Below, in pieces: positions 20,161 to 53,874 of a DNA stretch of 64,000 nt. The stretch spans positions 1-64,000 of the forward strand of contig JAUIGU010000017.1 of the NCBI GenBank assembly GCA_030432595.1. Reading direction: 5' to 3'. A model generated the notes under the pieces. The model did no database searches and was not told the origin of the DNA. It was given only the letters and a program-made list of their open reading frames with translations. How positions within the stretch are numbered: position 1 is the first letter of the stretch; each line of letters begins with the position of its first letter. Made by a program: the position numbers and the translations under genes. The stretch comes from Phycisphaerae bacterium. Its GTDB lineage: Bacteria > Planctomycetota > Phycisphaerae > Phycisphaerales > Phycisphaeraceae.

Positions 20161-20176
20161 TGCGAAGACCGTGCCA
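20161..20176 (-). promoter_or_regulatory. Sigma-54-like -24/-12 promoter
   Basis: The minus-strand sequence TGGCACGGTCTTCGCA matches the RpoN consensus TGGCACG-N4-TTGCA at all but one position and has the required GG-N10-GC spacing. It faces amtB-glnK, an operon that is under RpoN/NtrC control in many bacteria. No clear NtrC-type upstream palindrome was found. Confidence 0.42.
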
Positions 20177-43871: not shown

Positions 43872-44537
43872 CTAACCCTGCTGTTTGTTGATCCGGTAGT
43901 GGATCGCGTGGCGGGTGAGTTCGTTGCCGTTCTTGAGGCTGAGCTTGGCCTTGATTTTTTCGCGGTAGGTCTCGACGGTCTTGACGGACAGGTGCAGCCG
44001 GCCGGCGATCTCGCGCGAGCCCAGGCCGTCGCCGATCATCTCGAAGACCTCGAGTTCGCGGTCGGACAAGGACTCGACGGGTTCGGCGGCGGCGTCGATC
44101 TCGCCGCCGACCACCTGCGTGAGCACGCGCGAGGTCGCGGAGTCCGAGAGGTACACCTTGCCGTCGAGCACCCGGCGGATGGCCTCGACGATGTGGTCGG
44201 TGGCCTGGTCCTTGCGGAGGTAGCCCGAGGCGCCGGCGCGGAGCACGCGGTCGGCGTAGAGCGCCTCGTCGAGCATGGAGCACACGAGCATCTTGATGCC
44301 CCAGTCATTGGCGCGGACCTGCTTAATCAGTTCCAGGCCGTGCCCGTCGCCCAGCGACAGGTCGATGAGCGCGAGGTCGGGCTTGATCTCGCCGAGCACG
44401 TCGTAGGCCTCGGCGACGCTGGACGCCTCGCCGACGACTTCGAGGTCGCTCTCTTCGTTGACCAGTTCGACCAGCCCCCGTCGGACGATGGGGTGGTCAT
44501 CGACAATCACGATGCGGCAGGTGTCGGTAGTGGCCAT
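43872..44537 (-). CDS. NarL/LuxR-type response regulator
   Basis: The 221-residue protein has a receiver domain with the acidic pair in IVIVDDHPIVRRGL, the phospho-acceptor Asp59 in LALIDLSLGDGHG and the conserved Lys in GYLRKDQA. A LuxR-type helix-turn-helix follows, SLSDRELEVFEMIG then IAGRLHLSVKTVETYREKI (about 160-205). It is transcribed downstream of the multi-PAS sensor kinase (10-base gap), so the two form a two-component system. The signal and target genes are unknown. Confidence 0.93.
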   Translation of the reverse strand: MATTDTCRIVIVDDHPIVRRGLVELVNEESDLEVVGEASSVAEAYDVLGEIKPDLALIDLSLGDGHGLELIKQVRANDWGIKMLVCSMLDEALYADRVLRAGASGYLRKDQATDHIVEAIRRVLDGKVYLSDSATSRVLTQVVGGEIDAAAEPVESLSDRELEVFEMIGDGLGSREIAGRLHLSVKTVETYREKIKAKLSLKNGNELTRHAIHYRINKQQG

Positions 44538-44546
44538 CGGCGGTCT

Positions 44547-47075
44547 TCAGCGGTCGGGTTCAAGGGGCACCGCGACGTCGACGCGGGTGCCGCCCTGCGG
44601 GGCGGATTGGATCTCGAAACGACCCCGGATCATATCGGCTCGGTGCCGCATGATGCGCAGGCCGCGTCCCGAGCCCGCCCGGGCCGGTCCGCTTTCGCCC
44701 AGGCCCTGGCCGTCGTCCACGACCGTGAGCCGCAAGTTGGCCGCGGTGCACTCGAGCGTGATCTCGACCTGGCCGGCCCGGGCGTGCTTGGCGGCGTTGT
44801 GGCAAGCCTCCTGCGCGATGCGGAGCAGGTGGTCGGCCTGCTCGTCGGTCAGGGCGTCGGGCACGTCGTCGCAACGGGCCCGGGCCCGGACCCGGAAGAA
44901 GGTCATGAGGTTCGCCGCGATGCTGTTGAGCGAGGCGGGCAATTCTTCGGCGGCGATGGGGTCGGGCGTGAGGCCCGAGATGAGCCGGCGGACCTCGGCG
45001 TTGGCCTCGGTGACGATGCGAGCGAGCTCGTCCACGGTGTTCAGGTTCAGCGCCTCGCCGCGGGCGGTCTTGCGCCGGGCGCCTTCGAGCAGCATCCGCA
45101 GGCCGGTGATCTGCTGCCCGATGCCGTCGTGCAGCTCGCGGCCGATCTGTTGCCGCTCTTCCTCGGCCTTTTCCAACACGGCACGGTCGAGTTCGGCGCG
45201 GCGCTGCTCGGTGACGTCGGTGGCGATCGCGATCACGCCCGTCGCCCGGCCGGCCTCGTCGAACACCGGCACCTTGTCGGTCTGCACGAAGCGCGTCCCC
45301 TTGCCGGGCACGTCGTAGCTCTCGACGTAACCGAGCTTCGGCACGCCCGAGCGCATCACCGCCTGGTCGTCGCGGAAATACTCGTCCGCCTGGTCTGGGA
45401 AGAACTCCTCGGTCTTTCGGCCTTCGATCTGGTCCGCCGGCAAGCCCATCGATTCCGCGGCGGCACGGTTGACGCGGAGCATCCGTTTGTGCGCGTCTTT
45501 GTAAAAAATGTATGCCGGCACGGAGTCGAGGATGAGCTGCGTCTGCTCGTACAGCTCCGCGATGCGGTGCTCCGCCTGCTTGCGCTCGGTGATGTCGCGG
45601 GCCGTGATCGCCACGCCGTCGCCCACCGGGATCACCTGGTGCTGGATCCACGTCGGCACGACGCCCTGGTCTTCGGCGTCGAGCTCGAACTCGGCCATCA
45701 CCGGCACGCGCGACTCCGTGACCCGCGCGTAACGCTCGAACAGCCCGGTCTCCCGGTGCAGGGGCATCATCTCGCAGACCTTTTGGCCGACGACCTGATC
45801 GCGCGGCCGGGAGATCATCGCGGCGGCGGGCGCGTTCATATCGACAAACACAAAGTCGTCAATCTGTCCGTCGTCGTCACGCACCGCTTCGAGCAGGAAA
45901 AACGCGTCCAGCGCCCCGTCCAGCGCCGCGCGATAGCGGTCCTCGCTGCGGCGGAGGCGCTCGGTCGCCTCGACCTGGCTGGTGATGTCCTCAGCGATGC
46001 CGACGATCCGCAGGACCCGGCCGGCGTCGTCCGTCACCGCCTGCCCGCGGTCCCGGAGCCAGCGGGTCTGCCCGTCGGGGCGGACGATGCGGTAGCGCTG
46101 GTCGTACGGCGTTGTGTCGGCGTGGCGGAAGGCCTTGTTGACGCGGTCCCGGTCCTCGGGGTGGACGGCGTTGATCCACACCGACGCGTCGCCGAGCAGC
46201 TCGTCGGTGGTCCGCCCGGTCACGTCCGCGAAAGCCGGGCTGACGTAATCGATGCAGCGCTTCTGCCAATCGAAGACCCAGAACACCTCGGGCACGGCCT
46301 CGGCCAACTCGCGGAAGCGCTCCTCGGAGCGCGCCCGCGCGGCTTCGGCCTGGCGGTGGCCCGTGACATCCAGGCCCACGGACTGAAACTCGACCAGCGT
46401 GCCGCGCTCGTCGAACAACGCGCGGTCGGTCCAGAAGTGCCAGCCGGTCGAGCCGTCCGACCGCCGGACCTCGTGGGTGTAGCTTCGGCTCGGCTCGTCG
46501 GGCGAAAGCCGAGCAAGCCCGTTGAGGATCGTCGCGTGTTCAGCCTCCGGCACGTAGTCCAGAAATTTCCGGCCCAACAGTTCTTCGCGCGGGTAGCCGA
46601 AGTACCGGCAGTACGACGCGTTCACGAACGTCAGCGTCGTGTCCGGGCGGAACCGGCAGATCATCTCGACCTGGTCATCCACGACGCCGCGGTACTGGGC
46701 TTCGCGGAGGGCCAGGGTCCGTTCGGTGTCCTTGAACTCGGTGATGTCCTTGTGGGTGACCAGGACGGCTTGTTGCCCATCAACCTCAAAGCGTTTGATC
46801 CGGGTCCGCCACCACAACGTCCGCCCGTCGCGGTCCCCCGAGTGGTCGATCGTGGCGAGTTCGTCACCGCCGGCCAGGAAGTATTGGAGCGCAGCCGCGA
46901 CGTCAGGCTCGGCGCAGCGGGCGTAAAGTTCGCCGGGGTCGCAGGGGTGCCGGTCCTGCGTCCAGACCCCGTTGCGGCAGATCATGACCCCGTGGGCGTC
47001 GAACACGGCGGCGGCGGCGGGCAAAGCCTCCAACGCCGCGGCCGCAAGTCTGGGGTCCAGGTCCGTCACCGACAT
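44547..47075 (-). CDS. Cytoplasmic multi-PAS sensor histidine kinase (NarX/DegS type)
   Basis: 842 residues without a membrane helix. Five PAS-type sensor domains follow one another. The first is short (about 1-125), then come AQYRGVVDDQVEMICRFRPD, RFRELAEAVPEVFWVFDWQK, RYRAALDGALDAFFLLEAV and LYEQTQLILDSVPAYIFYKD. A dimerisation domain of the HisKA_3 type carries the phospho-His in RQQIGRELHDGIGQQ (about 648), and the ATPase domain has EACHNAAKHA (N box) and VDDGQGLG (G box). It should sense an intracellular cue, possibly redox or oxygen through a PAS cofactor, and phosphorylate the NarL-type regulator encoded next. Confidence 0.93.
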   Translation of the reverse strand: MSVTDLDPRLAAAALEALPAAAAVFDAHGVMICRNGVWTQDRHPCDPGELYARCAEPDVAAALQYFLAGGDELATIDHSGDRDGRTLWWRTRIKRFEVDGQQAVLVTHKDITEFKDTERTLALREAQYRGVVDDQVEMICRFRPDTTLTFVNASYCRYFGYPREELLGRKFLDYVPEAEHATILNGLARLSPDEPSRSYTHEVRRSDGSTGWHFWTDRALFDERGTLVEFQSVGLDVTGHRQAEAARARSEERFRELAEAVPEVFWVFDWQKRCIDYVSPAFADVTGRTTDELLGDASVWINAVHPEDRDRVNKAFRHADTTPYDQRYRIVRPDGQTRWLRDRGQAVTDDAGRVLRIVGIAEDITSQVEATERLRRSEDRYRAALDGALDAFFLLEAVRDDDGQIDDFVFVDMNAPAAAMISRPRDQVVGQKVCEMMPLHRETGLFERYARVTESRVPVMAEFELDAEDQGVVPTWIQHQVIPVGDGVAITARDITERKQAEHRIAELYEQTQLILDSVPAYIFYKDAHKRMLRVNRAAAESMGLPADQIEGRKTEEFFPDQADEYFRDDQAVMRSGVPKLGYVESYDVPGKGTRFVQTDKVPVFDEAGRATGVIAIATDVTEQRRAELDRAVLEKAEEERQQIGRELHDGIGQQITGLRMLLEGARRKTARGEALNLNTVDELARIVTEANAEVRRLISGLTPDPIAAEELPASLNSIAANLMTFFRVRARARCDDVPDALTDEQADHLLRIAQEACHNAAKHARAGQVEITLECTAANLRLTVVDDGQGLGESGPARAGSGRGLRIMRHRADMIRGRFEIQSAPQGGTRVDVAVPLEPDR

Positions 47076-49043: not shown

Positions 49044-50492
49044 ATGACCACGGACGGCCTGAGCGGGACGCGGCTGCACTTTGTCGGCATCGGCGGCAGC
49101 GGGATGTCGGGGCTCGCGCGGCTGTGCAGGGCGCGCGGCGCGGCGGTGACGGGCAGCGACCGCGGCGGTGGGCCGACCGTGGATGCGCTGGTGCGCGAGG
49201 GGTTCGAGCTTTCAATGGATCAGACGGCGGCGGGCGTGCCAGACGACGTGGAGACCATGGTGGTGTCCGCGGCGATCCCGTACGACCACCCGGAGGTGGT
49301 GGAGGCGACGCGGCGGGGCGTGGAGGTGATCAAGTACGCGGCGATGCTCGGCCGGCTCATGGCGGCGCCGGGCACAGTGGGCGTGGCGGTGGCGGGCACG
49401 CACGGCAAGAGCTCGACGACGTCGATGCTCGCGCACGTGTTGATCTCGGCCGGACTGGACCCGTCGGTGATCGTGGGCGCACGGTGCGAGCAGATCGGCG
49501 GCGGGCACCGGACGGGTGGCTCGCCGCTGCTGGTCGCCGAGGCGTGCGAGTACGACCGGTCGTTCCACGCGTTGTCGCCGACGCACGGCGTGATCCTCAA
49601 CCTCGAAGCCGATCACCTGGACATCTACGACGGGTTGGACGCGATCGTGGAGAGCTTCGCGGTCTTTGCGCGGAAGCTGCCGGCCAAAAAGAAAGGCGGG
49701 TCGCTGTTGATTCAACACGAGTCGCCGCACCGGGTGACGGTGACCGCGGGATTGAAGTGCGCGGTGGAGACGATCGGGTTCGCGCCGCAGGCGGAGTGGC
49801 GGGTGGAAGTGGCGGACCGCGGAGCGCCTTCAACGGATGGGCAGGCGAGGCGAAAAACCGTCCAAACGGATCGGCGCTGCCGGCTGTGGCGAAATGGCGA
49901 GGACGTGTGCGCGTGGAACCCGCCGATGCCGGGCGAGCACATGGCGTACAACAGCGCGGTCGCGGCGGTGACGGCGCACCGGCTGGGAGCGAACTGGGAC
50001 GACATCGCCGCTGCGCTGGAATCGTTCACGGGGCTGGACCGGAGGATGCAGCGCATCGGGAAGCGCGCGTTGCCCGTCGGCGGCGGCGTCGAGGTCATCG
50101 ACGACTACGGCCACCACCCCACCGAAGTCGATACCACATTGCGGGCGCTCAAGCAGCACCACGACCCGAAGCGTCTGATCTGCGTGTTTCAACCGCACCA
50201 GCACTCGCGCACCCGTCACCTGCTGGACCAGTTCGCGGTGAGCTTCGGCGCGGCCGACCTGGTCGTCGTGCCGGAGATCTACTTCGTGCGCGACAGCGAA
50301 GAAGAACGCATGAGCGTCACGTCGGCGACGCTGGTGGAAAGGCTGCGCGAACACGGAATCAACGCGCTGCACATCCACCCGCTGGACGCGATCGCGCCGC
50401 AGTTGCAGGCGCTGGCGCAGGACGGCGACCTGGTCGTGACCATGGGGGCGGGAGACGTGTGGACGGTGGCGCGGGCGCTGGTGGAAAACTAA
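49044..50492 (+). CDS. murC: UDP-N-acetylmuramate--L-alanine ligase
   Basis: MurC adds L-alanine to UDP-MurNAc, the first peptide step of peptidoglycan precursor synthesis in the cytoplasm. The 482-residue protein has FVGIGGSGMSGLARLC at the N-terminus (UDP-sugar binding), the ATP loop VAVAGTHGKSSTTSML (118-123 the core), EACEYDRSFHALSP, NLEADHLDIY and the C-terminal DDYGHHPTEVDTTL and QPHQHSRT. Length is normal. Other mur genes are absent from the window, so the dcw cluster is broken up here. Its presence supports peptidoglycan in this planctomycete. Confidence 0.95.
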   Translation: MTTDGLSGTRLHFVGIGGSGMSGLARLCRARGAAVTGSDRGGGPTVDALVREGFELSMDQTAAGVPDDVETMVVSAAIPYDHPEVVEATRRGVEVIKYAAMLGRLMAAPGTVGVAVAGTHGKSSTTSMLAHVLISAGLDPSVIVGARCEQIGGGHRTGGSPLLVAEACEYDRSFHALSPTHGVILNLEADHLDIYDGLDAIVESFAVFARKLPAKKKGGSLLIQHESPHRVTVTAGLKCAVETIGFAPQAEWRVEVADRGAPSTDGQARRKTVQTDRRCRLWRNGEDVCAWNPPMPGEHMAYNSAVAAVTAHRLGANWDDIAAALESFTGLDRRMQRIGKRALPVGGGVEVIDDYGHHPTEVDTTLRALKQHHDPKRLICVFQPHQHSRTRHLLDQFAVSFGAADLVVVPEIYFVRDSEEERMSVTSATLVERLREHGINALHIHPLDAIAPQLQALAQDGDLVVTMGAGDVWTVARALVEN

Positions 50493-50508: not shown

Positions 50509-50799
50509 TCAGTCTTCCATCTCGCCGACGTCGATCTGGTCCCAGTCGATGTCGCCGCGAGAGGCGATGCTCTCCTTCATGATCTGCTCGGCGCGTTGCA
50601 GGTCGCGCTCGTGGACCAGCACCTTCACGCTGCCCGGGGCTTCGGCGCGGAAGCCGGCGGTGAGCGTGCCGGCTGCCTGCGCCGCGATGCCGTGGTTCTG
50701 GAGTTCGTCGGCGAGCATCGTCGCCTCGATCTCACGGTCGAAGAACGCGAGCGTGACGAGCTTGTCGGCGGTCGGGCCGGTCGGGTCCGTGGTGTCCAT
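50509..50799 (-). CDS. DUF2007-like small protein
   Basis: 96 residues from an ATG at 50799 (MDTTDPTGPTADK). The core, LVTLAFFDREIEATMLADELQNHGIAAQAAG and VKVLVHERDLQRAEQIM, has the beta-alpha-beta pattern of the DUF2007 family, small proteins that resemble PII-type ferredoxin folds and are suspected signalling adaptors. The tail is acidic (DIDWDQIDVGEMED). It lies 45 bases upstream of... the regulator gene end and in the same direction after the two-component pair's reverse order, so co-expression is not certain. Function unknown. Confidence 0.75.
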   Translation of the reverse strand: MDTTDPTGPTADKLVTLAFFDREIEATMLADELQNHGIAAQAAGTLTAGFRAEAPGSVKVLVHERDLQRAEQIMKESIASRGDIDWDQIDVGEMED

Positions 50800-50843
50800 C
50801 CCGCCATTGTCGCCGGGCGGCTTGAATAAGGGAAGCAAAAAAA

Positions 50844-52259
50844 TCAGGAGGACGCGGGTTCGTCGAGCCGGAACTTGCGGATCTTTTTGTAGAGCGTGGT
50901 GCGGTCGATGCCGAGCTGGCGGGCCGTCTCAGAGCGGTTCCACTCGTTGGCTTCGAGCGCCGCCAGGAGGATGCGACGCTCGGGTTCGAGCAGGGCGTCG
51001 GCCAGGGGCATGGGCGTCCAGCCGTCGATGAGCGCGGGAATGGCGTCGGGGTGATGTGGCGATGGCGGTGGTTTTGCGCCGGCGTCCAAGCCGTGGGTCA
51101 CGCTGTCGGGCAGGTCGTCGGCGGTGAGCCGGAGGCGCGGCGACATCGTGGCGGCGTGGGCGATGGCCGCGTCGAACTCCGGAAGGTTGCCGGGCCAGGC
51201 GTAGGCGCGCAGCGCGGCGAGCGCCTCGTCGGTGAGTCGGCGTTGCCGGCCGTCGCGCTCGGCGAAACGGTCGAGCACATGTTGCGCCAACCCGGGCAAG
51301 TCATCTTGGCGGTGGCGCAGCGGGGGGACGTGAACCGGAACGACATTGACGCGGTAGAACAGGTCTTCGCGAAACGTGCCGGCCGCGACGCGCTCGCGGA
51401 GATCGCCGTCGGCGGTGAAAATGAATCGGGCATCGACGTCGCGTCCGTCCTTGGCGCCCAGTGGGGTGACGGTGTTGTGTTCGAGCAGTTCAAGCAGCCG
51501 GCGTTGCAGTCCGGGCGTGGCGGCGTGGAGGCCTTGAATGACGAGCGTGCCGCCGCGCGCCTGCGTGGCGACGCCGGGCCGGCTGCGCGTGACGTCGGGC
51601 AGTCCGCCGCGGGCGACGCCGCAGAGTTCGGCGACCTGCCCGGTTTCGTCGAGCCCGACGCAATCGAAGGTGACAAAAGGTTCGTCGTGTCTTGGGCTGT
51701 GGGCGTGGACGGCCCGGGCGAACAGGGACTGCCCCGCGCCCGGCTCGCCGGTGATCAGGACCGGGGTCTCGCCGGCCGCGGCGTCGCGGGCCTGCTGAAG
51801 AACGCGGGCGGTGCGGATGTCGTCGGCCACGAGCCCGGGTACGTCGTTTGCGTTGGATAACGACCGCGCCGCGTCGTCCGGCGCGAGCAGGGCGCGGCGC
51901 TGCACGGCGTCGGCGACGGCACGCTTGAGGTCGTCGTCGAGGACCGGTTTGGTCAGATAGTTCGCGGCGCCCAATTTGATCGCCTCGACCGCGTCTTCGA
52001 TCTTTCCGAAGCCGGTAAGCACCAGCGGCACCACGCCCGCCCCGCCGGACCGCACCCGCTTGAGCAGGTCGCGCCCGTCGCAACGGGGCATGTCCATGTC
52101 GGTGATGAGCACATCGATGCGCTGCCGCAGTTCGTTCAGCCGGTCGAGCGCCGCCTGGCCGTCGTTCGCGGTGTCGCAGTCGTAGCCCTCGGCAGACAGC
52201 AACGCCGCGAGCGAATCGGCGACGATCGGGTCGTCGTCCACGATCAGTACGCGGGTCAT
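50844..52259 (-). CDS. NtrC-family response regulator with a degenerate AAA+ domain
   Basis: 471 residues: a receiver domain (phospho-acceptor Asp54 in VLITDMDMP), a central AAA+ domain (about 140-380) and a Fis-type helix-turn-helix (NRSETARQLGIDRTTLYKKI, about 441-460). The central domain has lost its key motifs. Walker A reads GEPGAGQS (171-178) with Gln for Lys, GAFTGA is replaced by GGLPDV (218-223), and Walker B reads GGTLVIQGL (236-244) without the Asp-Glu pair. FREDLFYRVN and AYAWPGN are kept. It should therefore not hydrolyse ATP or open sigma-54 complexes and may act as a plain DNA-binding switch. It overlaps the kinase gene by four bases (ATGA). Confidence 0.92.
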   Translation of the reverse strand: MTRVLIVDDDPIVADSLAALLSAEGYDCDTANDGQAALDRLNELRQRIDVLITDMDMPRCDGRDLLKRVRSGGAGVVPLVLTGFGKIEDAVEAIKLGAANYLTKPVLDDDLKRAVADAVQRRALLAPDDAARSLSNANDVPGLVADDIRTARVLQQARDAAAGETPVLITGEPGAGQSLFARAVHAHSPRHDEPFVTFDCVGLDETGQVAELCGVARGGLPDVTRSRPGVATQARGGTLVIQGLHAATPGLQRRLLELLEHNTVTPLGAKDGRDVDARFIFTADGDLRERVAAGTFREDLFYRVNVVPVHVPPLRHRQDDLPGLAQHVLDRFAERDGRQRRLTDEALAALRAYAWPGNLPEFDAAIAHAATMSPRLRLTADDLPDSVTHGLDAGAKPPPSPHHPDAIPALIDGWTPMPLADALLEPERRILLAALEANEWNRSETARQLGIDRTTLYKKIRKFRLDEPASS

Positions 52260-53062
52260 CGCGTCGGCTCCGGCACGGGGCGCAAGGCCTGGCGCGGGAA
52301 GCGCAGCGTGAGCACGGCGCCGCGCGGTGTCCGATTGGTCAAACGCAGCGTCCCGCCCAGGGCCCGGGCGACCTGCCGGCACAAGCCCATGCCGATCCCG
52401 TTGCCGTCGGGCTTGGTGGTCACGCCGAACCGGAACGCGCCGCCTGCTTCGAACACCGCCGGGTCGAGCCCGGCGCCGGTGTCGGCCAGGGTCAGCAGCA
52501 CGTCGTCGCCGTCCTGTTCGAGGCGCAGCTCGACACGGTCGGCCCCGTTCGGATCGTTCGCACGCTGCCGCCGGAGTTGAATCGACTCGACCGCGTTGCG
52601 CAGCCCGTTGGACATCACGGTGTAGAGCGCGTCCGCCGGCGCGTCGGTCAAGCCCGGGTCGGCCAGCGCGGAGACCGTGATGCCCTGCTCGTCCACTTCG
52701 GCGGCGACGCTGCGCAGCGCGTGGTCGAGCGCTTCACCGACGGTCTGACCGAACGCGCGGGGCGTGGCGGAGACGGGGTCGGGCGTGGCGGCCGGGTTCG
52801 TGTTCCCCAGCGTGCGGACCAGGCCGATCATGCGGTGCATCAGATGGTCCGCGGACTCGAGGCGTTCGATCACGCCATCGGGGTCGGCCTCTTGGTTGTC
52901 GTCCCGCAACGCCCGCAGCGCCAGGCTCACCGACCGCATCGACCCGTCGAGCAGGTTGTTCAACTCGTGCGCCAACGCCGCCGGCGTGGACGTGTCGGCC
53001 GGGTCGGGTTCGCCGCCGTCGCGATGCGGGCCGCGCGGAGGATGTGAAGACGCTTGGTCCAT
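52256..53062 (-). CDS. Small cytoplasmic histidine kinase partner of the degenerate NtrC
   Basis: The 268-residue protein starts MDQASSHPPRGPHRDGGEPD and lacks both a membrane segment and a sensor domain. The transmitter is complete in outline: H box ALAHELNNLLDG (His32), N box NGLRNAVESIQL, G1 DTGAGLDP and G2 GNGIGMGLCRQVAR. It should phosphorylate Asp54 of the next gene's product, with which it overlaps by four bases. The input is unknown and may come from a protein partner. The start at 53062 was chosen because upstream translation is arginine-rich shadow sequence. Confidence 0.87.
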   Translation of the reverse strand: MDQASSHPPRGPHRDGGEPDPADTSTPAALAHELNNLLDGSMRSVSLALRALRDDNQEADPDGVIERLESADHLMHRMIGLVRTLGNTNPAATPDPVSATPRAFGQTVGEALDHALRSVAAEVDEQGITVSALADPGLTDAPADALYTVMSNGLRNAVESIQLRRQRANDPNGADRVELRLEQDGDDVLLTLADTGAGLDPAVFEAGGAFRFGVTTKPDGNGIGMGLCRQVARALGGTLRLTNRTPRGAVLTLRFPRQALRPVPEPTR

Positions 53063-53160: not shown

Positions 53161-53874
53161 TTAAGCGTCGCCGGAAGCGGGTTGCGCTGCGCATCCGGGA
53201 TCGCTCGGCAACTCGTTGTCGTCCGGCTTCTCGGACGTGCCGGCGTCGTCTGCGGGAACGGGTGCCGCGTCGTCCACGGTCTCGCGCAGCTTCGCCAACG
53301 CGGCGCTCGCCTTGGCCCAGGCCGCTTCCACCACCGCCGCCGCATCGGGCCGCGCGGCGTTCAGGCCGTCCCGCCAACGCCGGGCCTCGGCGTGCTCGGT
53401 CAGGTCCGGCAGGTGTTCGAGCCACTCGGCGTGTGCCCACAGCCGCTCCGCCAACGCCGACTCCGCCCGAAGTCTTGTTGTGCGCTCGCCGGCGTGCCGC
53501 AGTTTCATCAGCGTCAGGTCGAGCAGGCGTCGGCCCGTTACGCCGGCATCAAACGTGTCGACCGACGATGCGTCTTCATCAATTGGTGTGTCATCCGTTG
53601 CGGCCGCTTCCGTTGGATTCTTTTCTTCGGCATCGGTCGCCTCGGAAGTCTTCACCTCGGCGTCCGCCACATGCACCACGACCGCCTGCTGCATGTCGGC
53701 GTCGAGACACATCACCGCCCCGCCGACCACCTCGCCGCCGAACGTCGCGGTGTGGCTGAGGTCGTGCCGTACCGACTCGACATCGATCGCCTCGCCGCCG
53801 GCCATGGTGAACATGACCGCCTCCTGGATCTCGCCGGGCCGGGTCTCGCGGTATCGGACGGACGCGTCGGGCAT
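53161..53874 (-). CDS. Unrecognised acidic protein
   Basis: 237 residues starting MPDASVRYRETRPGEIQEA, with GGGAGAAGAT just before the ATG at 53874. The N-terminal 75 residues have a compact beta pattern (ATFGGEVVGGAVMCLDADMQ, then QQAVVVHVADA). A very acidic, Thr/Ala/Asp-rich linker follows (about 76-110), then an Ala/Leu/Arg-rich helical domain (about 112-205) and an acidic Pro-rich tail. No signal peptide. I do not recognise the family. It lies between the kinase and the GH5 gene, all in the same direction, but the gaps (98 and 89 bases) leave operon membership open. Confidence 0.6.
   Translation of the reverse strand: MPDASVRYRETRPGEIQEAVMFTMAGGEAIDVESVRHDLSHTATFGGEVVGGAVMCLDADMQQAVVVHVADAEVKTSEATDAEEKNPTEAAATDDTPIDEDASSVDTFDAGVTGRRLLDLTLMKLRHAGERTTRLRAESALAERLWAHAEWLEHLPDLTEHAEARRWRDGLNAARPDAAAVVEAAWAKASAALAKLRETVDDAAPVPADDAGTSEKPDDNELPSDPGCAAQPASGDA

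Follow-up and report, generated by a model that had tools for sequence, protein, structure and literature searches.

Within a 64,000-nucleotide stretch of a Phycisphaerae genome (positions 1 to 64,000 of contig JAUIGU010000017.1, assembly GCA_030432595.1; hereafter the window, and G000 for the source genome), we analysed the gene of an NtrC-type response regulator that lacks residues of every class needed for in-cis ATP hydrolysis and sigma-54 contact. Its product matches the Pfam families Response_reg, Sigma54_activat, AAA_lid_14 and HTH_8, the AAA+ domain covering residues 147-309 and the lid residues 315-390. The features of the gene are listed below, with residue counts taken from 78 aligned orthologues, of which 74 keep all AAA+ motifs and four, including this one, are degenerate.

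50844..52259 (-): NtrC-type response regulator with a dead AAA+ domain, 471 residues
51915..52250 (-): receiver domain, residues 4-115, Asp54 and its partners intact (PF00072, 1.2e-25)
51726..51749 (-): former Walker A motif GEPGAGQS, Lys177 replaced by Gln; Lys in 74/74 intact and 3/4 degenerate orthologues
51591..51608 (-): GAFTGA-loop position (sigma-54 contact), here GGLPDV within ARGGLPDV; GAFTGA or GSFTGA in 74/74 intact orthologues
51528..51554 (-): former Walker B motif GGTLVIQGL, Asp242-Glu243 replaced by Gln-Gly; Asp-Glu in 74/74 intact orthologues, Glu243 to Gly in 4/4 degenerate ones
51408..51410 (-): sensor I position, Asn284 replaced by Asp; Asn in 74/74 intact and 0/4 degenerate orthologues
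51324..51389 (-): arginine-finger segment, residues 291-312, kept, with 12/13 conserved columns
51180..51182 (-): sensor II position, Arg360 replaced by Pro, in G000 only among the four degenerate proteins
50871..50981 (-): Fis-type helix-turn-helix (HTH), residues 427-463, intact (PF02954, 2.2e-14)

Positions 284 and 360 are those that we take to be sensor I and sensor II, from the residue roles in NtrC1 and PspF. An earlier note, made from the DNA letters, had described Gln in place of the Walker A Lys, GGLPDV in place of GAFTGA and Gln-Gly in place of the Walker B Asp-Glu, in a protein with intact receiver, arginine-finger region and HTH. All three replacements are real in the translation of 52259..50844 (-), and the sensor I Asn and sensor II Arg losses come in addition to them. 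The intact parts were borne out by Pfam and by the residue table, the receiver keeping Asp8/9/10, the phospho-acceptor Asp54, Thr82 and Lys104, and the AAA+ domain keeping both arginine fingers (Arg297 and Arg303). Compared with an NtrC-type sigma-54 enhancer-binding protein, the regulator has the receiver with its phospho-Asp, the AAA+ fold and the Fis-type HTH, and is devoid of the Walker A Lys, GAFTGA and the Walker B Asp-Glu.

The regulator matches PF00158 (5.6e-38) with a score of 134 bits, whereas the four further proteins of the genome with a strong match to this family, all with their motifs intact, score 216-248 bits. A PF00158 match alone is insufficient to call a protein a sigma-54 activator. 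The predicted structure retains the AAA+ architecture (mean predicted local distance difference test score 83, predicted template-modelling score 0.62), and a fold search with this model gave its best E-values with Brucella NtrX, the AAA+ domains of LuxO, FleQ and FlrC also matching with TMt >0.9. At columns conserved in at least 95% of the 74 intact orthologues, the G000 regulator keeps 41/76 residues in the AAA+ core versus 31/34 in the receiver and HTH (Fisher p 9e-5).

Distribution, constraint and origin of the degenerate form

Homologues of the regulator were present in all 101 relative genomes searched, the best matches being orthologues and the lower ones paralogues. Six paralogue loci (L074, L077, L078, L082-L084) among the 84 loci aligned were excluded from the orthologue counts, leaving 78, and two loci (L071 and L075) stop at contig edges, without the HTH. 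The 51 genomes of the family that were searched comprise 44 with an aligned orthologue (40 intact, 4 degenerate) and seven (G003, G004, G014, G043, G046, G048 and G049) in which none was found, five of these seven being less than 90% complete. A second collection of species genomes was scanned with HTH patterns; among the best 80 of at least 558 relatives, which overlap the first set, 79 are intact and the remaining one is the G001 copy.

The degenerate set consists of G000, of G001, the only other genome of its genus in the sample, and of G037 and G042 from the nearby genus g10, the third genome of which, G010, encodes an intact protein. GAFTGA, the Walker B Asp-Glu (with Glu to Gly each time) and the sensor I Asn are lost in all four proteins, while the loss of the Walker A Lys is private to G000 (1/4). 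The phospho-Asp is kept in G000 and G001 and replaced by Glu in G037 and G042. Asn452 to Asp in the HTH is common to the four proteins, and all four genes are open over their matched length. The check proposed in the earlier note, conserved family or scattered decay, thus falls between its two outcomes: orthologues are intact almost everywhere (74/78; 79/80), and the loss is common to four genomes. Likewise, the loss of three motifs in one protein holds for G000 but not as a conserved set, the Walker A Lys being kept in 3/4 of the degenerate proteins.

Among the 74 intact proteins, mean identity is 75% in the AAA+ core versus 52% in the receiver and 58% in the HTH; none of the 2701 intact pairs falls below 60% in the AAA+ core (lowest 61%), and only 10 of them have an AAA+ core less alike than the receiver, with a gap of at most 5 points. 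Between G000 and G001, by comparison, identity is 39% in the AAA+, 71% in the receiver and 80% in the HTH, and between G037 and G042 it is 57%, 69% and 89%, respectively. Approximate ratios of non-synonymous to synonymous substitution (dN/dS, Nei-Gojobori-type) for G000/G001 are 0.23 in the receiver, 0.21 in the HTH, 0.42 in the AAA+ and 0.61 in the lid, and for G037/G042 they are 0.27 in the receiver, 0.11 in the HTH and 0.51 in the AAA+. This shift in AAA+ identity and dN/dS, in frames that stay open, argues for a relaxation of constraint confined to the motor.

The degenerate regulators group together as a single clade of four (support 100/99 at full length, 95/99 with the AAA+ and lid columns removed), and derived residues common to the four lie inside as well as outside the AAA+ domain. 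In the full-length tree, the G000 regulator groups with those of G037 and G042 (99/96) and not with that of its genus-mate G001, which conflicts with ileS and murC; its branch is long, and the tree tool warned of long branches meeting. A constraint placing the intact G010 with G037 and G042 was rejected at full length (p 0.005) and not rejected without the AAA+ columns (p 0.11), and a constraint grouping the degenerate four with G010 was not rejected (p 0.19). The marker trees disagree: G037 joins G010 in ileS (96/93) and rpoB (95/95), joins the genus of G000 and G004 in alaS (98/99), and is weakly placed in murC (78/84), while G004 joins the genus of G000 in ileS (99/98) and rpoB (100/100) and joins G037 in alaS (90/91). 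These trees were built without rpoB from G001 or G042 and without alaS or ileS from G042. With a gene tree in favour of one origin and markers that disagree, the degenerate form may have arisen once or twice, or the gene may have been transferred, possibly between Planctomycetes, or replaced. A plasmid source was rejected: five plasmid records reached an E-value of at most 1e-60, each from Escherichia or Klebsiella and 33-34% identical, with two annotated zraR.

Kinase, neighbouring genes and sigma-54 context

The genes around the regulator in the window are as follows.

52256..53062 (-): soluble histidine kinase with intact H (HELNN), N, G1 and G2 boxes (HATPase_c, 1.4e-15; start codon chosen)
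53161..53874 (-): small upstream open reading frame, poorly conserved operon neighbour (putative start, no Pfam match)
50509..50838 (-): DUF2007 protein downstream, also adjoining the regulator in G010
49044..50492 (+): Mur ligase (murC-type), convergent, marking the syntenic locus

The stop codon of the kinase overlaps the ATG of the regulator by four bases (52256-52259), and the adjoining kinase, with all four boxes intact, gives the locus the make-up of a two-component pair. Pfam detected no sensor domain in the kinase, HATPase_c being its sole match. The alignment places an intact kinase in both G000 and G001, 60-62% identical between them.

The neighbourhoods compared share a locus made of ileS, the small open reading frame, the kinase, the regulator and the convergent murC, with some losses and rearrangements. 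A kinase homologue lies upstream in 60/78 orthologous loci; the 18 others, in which no match was found among open reading frames of at least 100 residues in the available flank (77 bases upstream for L031), include G037 and G042, and most other kinase-less loci keep the phospho-Asp. Because the small open reading frame and murC still flank the regulator in G037 and G042, the kinase gene has probably dropped out of an otherwise retained arrangement there. In G004 (99% complete), a genome from a related genus, neither regulator nor kinase was found at murC or ileS, the candidates scored giving paralogue-level matches only.

Several further observations concern this locus. The small open reading frame between ileS and the kinase is fast-evolving and has counterparts in several relatives, one of them with a weak, sub-threshold acetyltransferase match. 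Two loci (L038 and L057, from G021 and G039) display an opposite pattern: in the same pair the AAA+ motifs are intact, the H box of the kinase is lost or was not found, and the HTH has diverged, with 48% identity between the two loci. Another orthologue (L076, from G094) has intact AAA+ motifs, Glu at the phospho-Asp position and no kinase found upstream. A rearrangement visible in G037 and G042 (L151-L153) relative to G010 (L154, L155) puts the regulator-murC segment beside the locus of a GAF-type sigma-54 activator, and ileS is elsewhere in G037. The window also carries, at 43872-47075 (-), a second two-component pair formed by a multi-PAS HisKA_3 kinase and a LuxR-type response regulator.

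Sigma-54 itself is still encoded, rpoN being present in G000, G001, G004, G010, G037 and G042, and G000 holds four further activators with intact Walker A, GAFTGA and Walker B Asp-Glu. The motor loss is therefore specific to this regulator, and loss of sigma-54 from the genome is ruled out as its cause by rpoN in these six genomes. A sigma-54 consensus scan of the 64-kb window and 16 loci revealed no site at the operon. Searched genome-wide in eight genomes, an exact sigma-54 pattern gave 0-11 sites per genome, counts near or no better than the reversed control in several of them, and no regulon was therefore inferred. Elsewhere in the window, a sigma-54-like -24/-12 element (TGGCACGGTCTTCGCA) lies at 20176 (-), about 170 bases upstream of an ammonium transporter (PF00909, 18327-20003 (-)), a possible sigma-54 target in G000.

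A proposed conversion of the regulator and the alternative readings

The reading we favour, with moderate confidence, is that of a former sigma-54 activator whose AAA+ domain would now serve as a spacer or for oligomerisation, without catalysis, in a protein acting as a phosphorylation-controlled, sigma-54-independent DNA binder. The open frames and constrained HTH of the degenerate proteins, together with the intact kinase and phospho-Asp in the genus of G000, fit such a protein. Judging from their intact motifs, the adjoining soluble kinase would phosphorylate Asp54 of the regulator, and by analogy with the family this may alter dimerisation or oligomerisation and hence DNA binding. The HTH would bind sites of the ancestral type, and the regulator would act by occupancy at promoters of the housekeeping sigma factor, as a repressor or a direct activator; no sigma-54 promoter would be opened at the expense of ATP. 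The different job that the earlier note had proposed, a phosphorylation-controlled DNA-binding protein acting without sigma-54, is compatible with the receiver, HTH and kinase retained in the genus, but a stepwise disappearance of the whole system is plausible too. From its sequence, the regulator has probably either turned into a simple phosphorylation-controlled DNA-binding protein or started on its way to loss.

Several points weigh against conversion. The alignment behind the predicted fold contains, in addition to the regulator, 44 rows that come for the most part from intact relatives, and the dN/dS values are rough, with synonymous sites near saturation. There are four degenerate sequences only, two of them in the genus, and if G000 and G001 degenerated separately, part of their joint constraint predates the loss. 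GAFTGA loss alone does not predict ATP independence, since the NtrC of Caulobacter still needs its Walker A and Walker B residues (PMC10274813, partial text). Finally, G004 is without both genes, G037 and G042 are without an adjoining kinase and have Glu at the phospho-Asp position, and a slow loss would look alike.

Such a slow loss is the most serious alternative, although we consider it unlikely: the pathway would be dispensable in the clade, the ATPase decaying first, then the kinase and the phospho-site, and the gene last, so that the regulator would have little or no function. The relatives do offer graded states, from intact with kinase (G010) to dead AAA+ with kinase (G000, G001), dead AAA+ without adjoining kinase and with Asp54 to Glu (G037, G042), and both genes not found (G004). 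Moreover, no orthologue was found in G043, a 100% complete genome of another genus, suggesting that the gene is dispensable elsewhere too. However, terminal decay should cost the DNA-binding end as well, whereas the genes stay open, the receiver and HTH remain constrained while the AAA+ drifts, and the kinase is intact in the genus.

It is improbable, next, that the regulator serves as a dead subunit in mixed rings, joining an intact activator and donating its arginine finger in trans or poisoning the ring, thereby modulating sigma-54 transcription. Partners would be at hand in G000, with rpoN and four intact activators, and the arginine-finger segment 291-312 is spared in G000 (12/13 conserved columns, versus 29/63 in the rest of the AAA+ core; p 0.002) and in G001 (13/13 versus 35/63; p 0.001), these values being uncorrected and the segment one of seven. 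The same segment shows no special sparing in G037 and G042 (4/13 each, p 1.0), it may be kept for folding or receiver contacts, and cross-assembly between different activators is hypothetical here. As for an artefact of sequencing, assembly or annotation, the 73 contigs of the source assembly are outweighed by a frame open throughout, by 35/76 changed AAA+ columns and by related losses in open frames of the separate genomes G001, G037 and G042, which rule out sequencing error, make any artefact extremely improbable and set aside the recent private decay that the earlier note had named as its refuter.

Conversion into a sigma-54-independent DNA binder could be taken one step further, to a proposal that we regard as tentative and somewhat doubtful: within one family, motor loss alone would have made a sigma-54 activator a phosphorylation-gated, ATP-independent DNA binder, possibly with its arginine finger acting on the rings of other activators, while relatives preserve the states before, during and after. 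If true, the conversion of an obligate ATP-driven activator into an ordinary transcription factor, usually inferred from distant cases, could be reconstructed experimentally from close relatives. One family holds the pair in four states (complete, motor-dead beside its kinase, motor-dead with no kinase, and missing altogether), which allows testing what change comes first and whether DNA binding stays under the control of the phospho-switch once the motor is gone.

Comparison with known regulators

The published systems compared here are described from partial texts of the sources cited. Like the G000 regulator, the NtrC of Caulobacter crescentus is a receiver-AAA+-HTH regulator with a cognate kinase, from which GAFTGA is absent; it acts at sigma-70 promoters, and its Walker A Lys178 and Walker B Asp235 are needed for ammonium use (PMC10274813, PMC12421884), whereas both of these residues are gone in G000. 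The NtrC and HupR of Rhodobacter capsulatus are likewise GAFTGA-defective NtrC-type response regulators, which act with sigma-70 (PMC10274813, PMC3162934); this NtrC requires ATP binding, unlike the G000 regulator, in which the Walker A Lys is lost. The VpsR of Vibrio cholerae (structure 7v2b) is GAFTGA-defective too, acts at sigma-70 promoters and was reported to be ATP-independent (PMC10274813, PMC3162934, PMC4877007). In contrast to VpsR, whose Walker motifs lie outside this comparison, the adjoining intact kinase and full receiver of the G000 regulator argue for phosphorylation. TyrR is, with HupR, a further precedent, and GAFTGA-deviant homologues number about 110 (PMC3162934).

The 74 intact Phycisphaerae orthologues share with the G000 regulator the domain order, 36-51% identity and, in the neighbourhoods compared, the locus, but they carry the complete set of Walker A and B motifs, GAFTGA, sensor I and the two arginine fingers. 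A published inventory of sigma-54 regulons including Planctomycetota retains GAFTGA-bearing proteins only (PMC12316311, partial text), so that the G000 regulator would escape its list. In a partial literature search, we found no report of an NtrC-type regulator that has lost both Walker motifs next to an intact kinase, or of the present Phycisphaeraceae case. Relative to the GAFTGA-less NtrC-type class, the G000 regulator shares the absence of GAFTGA and departs from it by not retaining the Walker A Lys. GAFTGA-less NtrC-type regulators acting at sigma-70 promoters are already known; the G000 regulator, in which the motor is dead while the neighbouring kinase is intact, represents a variant of them.
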